This document shows, piece after piece, positions 37,761 to 42,948 of a stretch of DNA of 64,000 bases (within the stretch, counting starts at the first letter, position 1; each line of letters opens with the position of its first letter). The stretch is from Streptomyces sp. RPT161 (GTDB lineage: Bacteria; Actinomycetota; Actinomycetes; Streptomycetales; Streptomycetaceae). The notes beneath the pieces are model-generated. The model did not search any database. It saw only the letters and a program-made list of their open reading frames with translations, and was not told where the DNA came from. Made by a program: the position numbers and the translations under genes. The DNA is taken from the NCBI RefSeq assembly GCF_027533845.1, contig NZ_JAPZVN010000022.1, positions 1 to 64,000 of the forward strand, written 5' to 3'.

Positions 37761-37836
37761 TGGAGCGGACGACGAGGCTCGAACTCGCGACCTCAACCTT
37801 GGCAAGGTTGCGCTCTACCAACTGAGCTACGTCCGC
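37761..37836 (-). tRNA. tRNA-Gly(GCC), copy 1
   Basis: Full cloverleaf on the minus strand: acceptor GCGGACG/CGTCCGC, D-arm GCTC-AGTTGGTA-GAGC with G18G19, anticodon loop TTGCCAA, T-loop TTCGAGC, discriminator T and an encoded CCA (37761-37763). Starts only 18 nt after the stop of the upstream response-regulator gene on the same strand, so it may be reached by read-through. Identical to the copy at 41677-41752. Confidence 0.97.
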
Positions 37837-41676: not shown

Positions 41677-41752
41677 TGGAGCGGACGACGAGGCTCGAAC
41701 TCGCGACCTCAACCTTGGCAAGGTTGCGCTCTACCAACTGAGCTACGTCCGC
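41677..41752 (-). tRNA. tRNA-Gly(GCC), copy 2
   Basis: Identical over all 76 nt to the tRNA at 37761-37836, including the encoded CCA. Minus strand. Together the two copies flank the ABC/two-component operon as direct repeats. Confidence 0.97.
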
Positions 41753-41829: not shown

Positions 41830-41901
41830 AGCGGGTGACAGGAATCGCACACTGCGCCTCCCCTTTGGAAAAGGGGCGCTCTACTACTGAGCTACACCCG
41901 C
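41830..41901 (-). tRNA. Atypical tRNA-Gly(UCC) with altered D-loop and T-arm
   Basis: 72 nt on the minus strand, no encoded CCA. Perfect acceptor (GCGGGTG/CACCCGC), D-stem (GCTC/GAGC) and anticodon arm (CCCCT-TTTCCAA-AGGGG, anticodon UCC). The D-loop is AGTAGTA, so G18 is A (base 41885). The T-arm reads CAGTG-TGCGATT-CCTGT: position 55 is G instead of T (base 41848), giving GTGC in place of GTTC, and only two of five T-stem pairs can form. Either a tRNA specialised away from EF-Tu/ribosome use or a decaying copy. Confidence 0.8.
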
Positions 41902-42263
41902 GCGGTTCGGTGGTTCGGCCTTTCGGCCTCGCCCCCGGCGCGCTTCAGACTTTAGCTGATCACCGGGGGCTGCTGTCCAATCGAGCCCTCAACTGCCGGG
42001 CAGATGGCTGCATATGGAGGCTTACGTCCGATTCGACCCGGCCCCGCGGGCGCCGGGCCGCAGTCGCCCACCCCTGTCCGTCCGGGGGCTCGGGGTCGCC
42101 CAGAGTCTCCGGACAGGCTCGGGGACTCGCCCCCTCGCCCCCACGAAATCTGCGACGGCGAACAGCCCGGACGGCGCGGTGTCGGCGGCACCGAACTCAC
42201 TGCAACCCCCGGCCCGGGGGCGGGAGGCCGCCCCCCGGCTTCCGGCCGCAGGGGATCGAACCG
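41902..42263. other. Intergenic region between tRNA-Gly(UCC) and the Lsr2 gene
   Basis: 362 bp without a convincing gene; open frames here lack sensible codon use. The only clear structure is a GC hairpin at 42214-42238 (CCGGGGGCGG with CCGCCCCCCGG, one bulged C, 4-nt loop) suited to terminate the minus-strand Lsr2 gene. The tRNA promoter must lie near 41902-41990. Confidence 0.55.
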
Positions 42264-42581
42264 TCACCGCGCGGCGTCGAACGCCTCGTACACCTTCTTG
42301 GGGATCCGCCCCCGCGGCGGCACGTCGAACCCGTGGGACCGCGCCCAGGCCCGCACCGCCGCCGGGTCCGGCGCGACCGACGTCCGCTTGTACGTCTTGC
42401 CCGACCGGCTGCGGCGGCGCCCCGCCTGCAGGTAAGGCATCAGCGCGTCGCGGAGCTTGTCCGCATTCGCGGCGGAGAGGTCGATCTCGTAAGACTTGCC
42501 GTCAAGGCCGAACGCGACCGTTTCCTCTGCTTCGCCGCCGTCGATGTCGTCGGAGAGGGAGACCACCACGCGCTGCGCCAT
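42264..42581 (-). CDS. lsrL: Lsr2-family nucleoid-associated protein (LsrL type)
   Basis: 105 residues from ATG at 42581 with AAAGGA upstream; the open frame before it is not coding. N-terminal dimerisation part MAQRVVVSLSDDIDGGEAEETVAFGLDGKSYEIDLSAANADKLR (in parts) and C-terminal AT-hook-like DNA-binding part VRAWARSHGFDVPPRGRIPKKVYEAF, in which RGR is the minor-groove contact motif. Lsr2 proteins bind A/T-rich DNA and silence it, H-NS-like. Placement in front of purS matches the S. coelicolor paralogue LsrL rather than Lsr2 itself (recalled synteny). Confidence 0.93.
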   Translation of the reverse strand: MAQRVVVSLSDDIDGGEAEETVAFGLDGKSYEIDLSAANADKLRDALMPYLQAGRRRSRSGKTYKRTSVAPDPAAVRAWARSHGFDVPPRGRIPKKVYEAFDAAR

Positions 42582-42948
42582 GGATATCGGTCCTTTCGTG
42601 CGGCAACGGCTGCACGGGTACGTACCAGGTACCCATGTCGTCCGCCCTGACGTGCGGAGATGTGCCGTAGCCGACTGGTCGGGGTCAATGCGTTTTGATT
42701 TGCGCAAGGGACGGTATTACGAGCGGAAGCTGTGGCATATTTCCCTGCCTCATCGCGCCGCAATCGGGACCATACGGTTTTCCTTGCGTTTTCCACAGAG
42801 GTTACCCCGGTCGATGCATAACCGTGATGGGGTGACGGGGATATCTATGCGCGTAGATTTTTCGGCCGGGTACGCTGAGAGCACTTCGGAGGTCGTCACA
42901 GTCGCCACCTTCGAGGTCACCTCACGCACCACACCACCGGGAGTGCAC
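42582..42948. promoter_or_regulatory. A/T-enriched divergent region lsrL/purS
   Basis: 367 bp without a gene. From about 42680 to 42870 it is clearly A/T-richer than the rest of the window (e.g. TTTTGATTTGCGC, CATATTTCCC, GGTTTTCCTTGCGTTTTCC with a GTTTTCC direct repeat at 42776-42794), as expected for an Lsr2-type target and thus a candidate autoregulatory site. A -10-like TACGCT at 42871-42876 may start the purSQL transcript about 65 nt before purS. Confidence 0.55.

Follow-up and report, generated by a model that had tools for sequence, protein, structure and literature searches.

The peptidoglycan tRNA-Gly(UCC) of Staphylococcus epidermidis carries GUGC in its T loop. Such tRNAs of Staphylococcus aureus and S. 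epidermidis were reportedly described by Stewart (1971) and Giannouli (2009). According to a report available in part (PMC4052509), the non-proteinogenic tRNA-Gly of S. aureus has A49-U65 and A51-U63 where strong EF-Tu pairs would otherwise stand, and its positions 18-19 are UU or CU. The accessible part of another (PMC8007984) presents an S. aureus UCC gene with a low tRNA score and with D- and T-loop variants, the product of which is charged and poorly recognised by EF-Tu; the same case is repeated in PMC4810233, also seen as a partial text. A further odd tRNA gene is tRNA-Other of Bacillus cereus, a pseudo-tRNA that is thought to be non-translational and has wall phenotypes (PMC3399842, partial text).

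The locus reported here is a real and conserved second tRNA-Gly(UCC) of the Streptomycetaceae with a bulged T stem. The gene (hereafter the variant) occupies 41830..41901 on the minus strand of the window, i.e., of the whole stretch of 64,000 nucleotides that was analysed, and is 72 nt long without CCA. Infernal identifies it as a tRNA (Rfam RF00005, 56.5 bits, E 1e-10; curated cut-off 29), and the score lies within the span of 49 to 77.5 bits covered by the 63 tRNA matches of the genome. The acceptor, D and anticodon stems are perfect in the RF00005 alignment, as an earlier examination of the letters (the sequence-only reading) had stated; it was also right about the anticodon UCC (41867-41869), A at position 18 (41885) and G at position 55 (41848), all on the minus strand. 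Minimum-free-energy folding produced a cloverleaf neither for the variant nor for the canonical tRNA, and the folds were left unused.

ARAGORN did not call the variant in the window and calls just 14 of its 45 distinct forms when each is placed in made-up flanks; the variant is thus easy to overlook. The same calls would suit a decaying tRNA pseudogene, which we consider highly improbable, as it is contradicted by the conservation of the body, the compensated changes, the promoter-like region and the copy number. In 206 distinct contexts, the identity is 93% over the 72-nt body and 30-38% in the flanks, and the changes among relatives are compensated in the acceptor, D and anticodon stems and, in the register described below, in the T stem as well. 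The view that the gene does not look like random decay is thereby upheld, and its departures do lie in the T arm and the elbow.

The T stem was initially credited with only two pairs, G51-U63 and G53-C61. This is true in the textbook register; however, if the strand is shifted by one around a bulged U (41851, minus strand), the window gene has 5/5 pairs (G-U, C-G, A-U, G-C, bulged U, G-C). The T arm (41838..41855, minus strand) then reads GCAG-[U]-G / C-CUGU with the loop U-G-C-G-A-U-U, and the variable loop is 4 nt long, which is also its length in the canonical tRNA-Gly(UCC) of the genome; the Infernal alignment likewise places one inserted U in this arm. Over the 45 distinct sequences, 224/225 T-stem pair cells are satisfied in the bulged register vs 90/225 in the standard one, the values for the other stems being 315/315 (acceptor), 180/180 (D) and 224/225 (anticodon). 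The sole exception in the bulged register is one sequence common to loci L070 and L244 (Mangrovactinospora gilvigrisea), where ACA-U-GG opposite CCUGU forms five pairs once the bulge is moved one place. The 45 forms come from 187 loci with 232 copies, some of which were retrieved twice, and were gathered by similarity to the window gene, so that invariant pairs carry little information; most weight falls on the shift of the bulge and on the inability of the standard register to pair. With this reservation, A51-U63 is found in 45/45 sequences, and the first pair (49-65) is G-U in 41/45 and A-U in 4/45.

Positions 18 and 55 hold A and G, respectively, in 40/45 distinct forms, the other 5/45 having G and U, with no mixed combinations; the switch may be a single evolutionary event and is not strong covariation. 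The G18-U55 forms belong to Embleya (L242) and Streptomyces sp. SID3343 (L229), which share one form, to Yinghuangia (L211), and to the loci L065, L068 and L069 from the genera designated g2 and g5. As the Embleya and Yinghuangia forms combine the bulge with a normal G18-U55, it is the bulge and not the elbow change that is, as far as the compared sequences go, the constant peculiarity of the variant.

The sequence-only reading had further described the tRNA elbow as lacking, which we cannot support: G19-C56 and U54-A58 are retained in 45/45 sequences, and 18-55 is A-G or G-U. The T loop contains GUGC in 40/45 forms, and the U-G-C-R-A of the A18-G55 forms matches the T-loop consensus UGxRA as quoted in the available part of a T-box review (PMC7583486). 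Considering the two retained contacts together with this match, the elbow is probably rewired rather than lost. An L shape is therefore plausible, which is one point in favour of a tRNA that is competent in translation, i.e., a reader of GGA and GGG in which the bulge is tolerated and the elbow rewired, and which is kept as an extra copy under regulation, perhaps for a growth phase. The sequence UCC in a normal anticodon loop at 38/38 loci, taken from a DNA search that did not require it, is another; such conservation would also be explained by decoding and so counts against a non-ribosomal role.

The comparison with staphylococci can now be made by description. According to the partial texts (PMC4052509, PMC8007984), the variant shares with the tRNA-Gly(UCC) of S. 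aureus the amino acid, the anticodon, changes in both D and T loops, and A51-U63; like the staphylococcal gene, it is extra to the canonical set. There are differences as well: S. aureus replaces both G18 and G19 (PMC4052509, as far as its accessible part goes), whereas the variant has A18 G19 in 40/45 forms and G18 G19 in 5/45; S. aureus combines A49-U65 with A51-U63 (same source), whereas pair 49-65 of the variant is mostly G-U as given above; and the bulged T-stem nucleotide, the kept G19 and the G18-U55 subgroup are all unlike the staphylococcal case. The parallel drawn in the sequence-only reading is sound in the kind of change, A51-U63 (bulged register) and GUGC included; the details diverge. 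Our guess is that the variant arose independently of the staphylococcal genes. The B. cereus tRNA-Other, again compared by description, resembles the variant as an odd tRNA gene thought to act outside translation and differs from it in having a Trp anticodon, in being poorly charged (with lysine in vitro) and in lying beside a genomic island (PMC3399842, partial text).

Matches at the level of the variant (E 2e-14 or better) are present in 222/297 genomes of the family and in 15/17 genera, a table count by E in which not every match was inspected letter by letter. A broader tally, 256/297 genomes matching the 92-nt query at E up to 0.01, includes canonical tRNAs, whose matches to this query begin at 4.8e-12; excluded from it are 31 genomes of the genus designated g14 (best E 5.0e-12; L071-L078 are canonical), two of g12 (canonical) and one of g16 (E 0.001). 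The g12 matches (1.7e-10 and 4.8e-12, in 2/3 genomes) were considered as variants and rejected, as they are really a canonical tRNA with a few matching flanking bases. Another search, with no strong match in 3/3 g12 genomes, misses canonical copies, so that it is weak evidence for absence there. Outside the family, 0/354 genomes of the class match the exact or the 2-mismatch signature, which other bulged forms would escape; each signature matches 40/394 class genomes, namely 40/40 of those drawn within the family (the window genome and 39 of g10). The 92-nt stretch is identical in two other genomes of the window's genus.

Named carriers include Streptomyces, Streptantibioticus, Yinghuangia, Embleya, Wenjunlia and Mangrovactinospora. 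The observation is not one of Streptomyces in the strict sense: the named locus nearest to the window belongs to the same family (Streptantibioticus rubrisoli, L200; PurL 97.6% identical over 626 of 761 aa). Among the 119 named variant-bearing loci, a single copy is present at 99, two copies at 8, three at 11 and four at 1, i.e., tandem copies (2-4) occur at 20/119. Three copies are also found at L202 (NZ_PXWG01000042.1), which is titled Streptosporangium nondiastaticum and which we suspect to be a misnamed streptomycete. The variant, with its bulged T stem and probably rewired elbow, has apparently gone undescribed so far: no description of a similar streptomycete tRNA-Gly was found in the literature covered, which takes in a minority of the subscription journals, and the accessible parts of papers on DasR (PMC4398421), on noncoding RNA of S. 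ambofaciens (PMC8388888) and on development (PMC4255298) do not mention the gene.

The canonical tRNA-Gly(UCC) of the window genome lies at G000:C52:91396-91466. It shares the acceptor type and the 4-nt variable loop with the variant; unlike the variant, it is 71 nt long and has the T stem GCGGG/CCCGT with G51-C63, the contact G18-U55 and no bulge. The question of a canonical copy elsewhere, raised in the sequence-only reading, is settled for the family as well: 296/297 genomes contain one (E up to 1e-9, at which the canonical query matches 0/45 variant forms). The weakest match inspected (g5, 4e-13) comes from a gene of its own (L312), and the single genome without a match (G135), in which the variant is present, is a draft assembly of 470 contigs. 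Thus, the variant is not the sole reader of GGA. For this reason, and because the bulge lies in the EF-Tu-facing stem in 45/45 forms and decoding alone gives no reason to retain so odd a T arm, we regard the translation-competent extra copy as rather unlikely, even though the variant also has a promoter-like region of its own.

This region (41949..41980, minus strand) consists of TTGGAC (41975-41980), the block CCCCCGGTGATCAGC (41955-41969) and TAAAGT (41949-41954). A -10-like site TA[GAC]A[GC]T is found in 152/204 distinct upstream regions vs a mean of 5.8 and a maximum of 12 in shuffles (n=100), and 52/204 are without the site sought; a TTG-type -35 is present in 145/204, with a spacer of 19 nt in 136/145 and of 20 nt in the window. 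The consensus aligned on the -10-like site is CCGAcTTGC...gCACCCC.GgTGATC.GC-TAGAGT. Its GGTGATC block was not seen upstream of the canonical UCC gene of the window genome or of twelve g14 and g12 Gly(GCC) genes. The spacer contains a partial dyad CACCC/GGGTG, which suggests that expression of the variant would be regulated, and we take the layout (a spacer mostly of 19 nt, CACCCC.GgTGATC and the partial dyad) to resemble that of promoters under MerR-type regulators.

The order of genes on the minus strand is lsr2, the variant, Gly(GCC) and ABC transporter genes. The upstream gene lsr2 (42264..42707, minus strand; Pfam PF11774, Lsr2 dimerization, E 4e-28; PF23359, DNA-binding, E 1.4e-16) is a conserved neighbour, with a matching upstream gene in relatives, and purQ- and purL-like genes lie past it on the opposite strand. 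Directly downstream is an ordinary tRNA-Gly(GCC) called by ARAGORN (41677..41752, minus strand); such a gene occurs less than 400 nt downstream of the variant at 175/182 loci (187 minus 5 with less than 200 nt downstream), at a median of 78 nt. Within the window, the tRNA-Gly(GCC) genes at 37761-37836 and 41677-41752 are identical, both differ from the genome's third GCC gene, and together they flank a block of a response regulator, a histidine kinase and an ABC transporter.

The identity elements of tRNA-Gly are G1-C72, C2-G71, C35, C36 and U73. The variant keeps them, and its pair 3-70 is G-C in 39/45 forms and A-U in 6/45. We presume, from the comparison of forms, that one U was inserted in the T stem early in the Streptomycetaceae and that the 18-55 contact would have switched later, in most genera, from G-U to A-G. 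With its identity elements retained, the tRNA should be charged by glycyl-tRNA synthetase and carry glycine, and, since the bulge and A51-U63 lie in the stem gripped by EF-Tu, the Gly-tRNA should evade this factor. It would then remain free for a Gly-tRNA-dependent enzyme outside the ribosome, most likely the enzyme of the FemX type by which glycine is added in the LL-DAP-Gly cross-bridge. A functional and specialised paralogue of this kind, with non-ribosomal use and FemX as the likeliest user, is the explanation that we favour, with a confidence somewhat short of even; FemX is accordingly named as the leading, though unproven, candidate.

The window genome has one FemAB gene, which counts in favour of use by FemX. 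The co-occurrence of FemAB (PF02388) with the variant gives no signal, as FemAB is present in 43/43 genomes tested (23 with the variant and 20 without), so that FemX does not need the variant in those 20. This is in line with another role outside translation: the variant could donate glycine to a non-ribosomal enzyme other than FemX, or be a regulatory tRNA-like RNA acting through fragments or protein titration. Against this explanation stand the unchanged identity elements and acceptor, and a T-box partner is unlikely; we hold it to be improbable, if not strongly so. Taking both non-translational possibilities together, a use outside translation is likely.

The T-box partner role was rejected as unlikely: no glycine-specific T-box was found in the genome, whose single match at E up to 1 is the leader of ileS (G000:C52:547917-548137, below the Rfam cut-off). 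The 7 other family genomes that were searched also give similar weak T-box matches, G072 having two; the ileS leader is the one that was inspected.

The series of bulge only, bulge with A18-G55, and gene absent represents a natural test of the T-arm features that EF-Tu and FemX read. A non-standard tRNA-Gly that is conserved in the main antibiotic-producing genus and in its relatives is of interest also because the question is testable in genetically tractable laboratory strains. The absent state is exemplified by g14 (9/9) and g12 (3/3 genomes examined), where two tandem Gly(GCC) genes occupy the usual site of the variant (five of the twelve loci were also checked for the lsr2 neighbour); hence, the variant gene can be lost. 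The genus g14 is probably, not certainly, Kitasatospora, since an Mbl-type second MreB was not seen in 6/6 of its genomes (in G170, the score of the second full match is like that of MreB) and mbl is absent in Kitasatospora according to the accessible part of PMC5331497; a strong Mbl-type match is also missing in three g3 genomes and one g5 genome, so that this absence is no proof. If the assignment is correct, the Kitasatospora wall, which contains LL-DAP as well as meso-DAP together with glycine and galactose (PMC8236941, partial text), allows the speculation that a lower need for wall Gly-tRNA explains the loss.

In g12, the tRNA-Gly called UCC (L080:1452-1526, L081:1452-1526 and L085:1360-1433) has the anticodon loop CCUCCAG, with C33 instead of the near-universal U in 3/3 genomes, all of them without the variant where it would normally lie. 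This tRNA may replace a non-translational tRNA-Gly. A wider proposal, that the Streptomycetaceae independently evolved a wall tRNA-Gly that avoids EF-Tu, with the bulged nucleotide as the antideterminant, the A18-G55 elbow and, in g12, a replacement with C33, is put forward tentatively and with some doubt.
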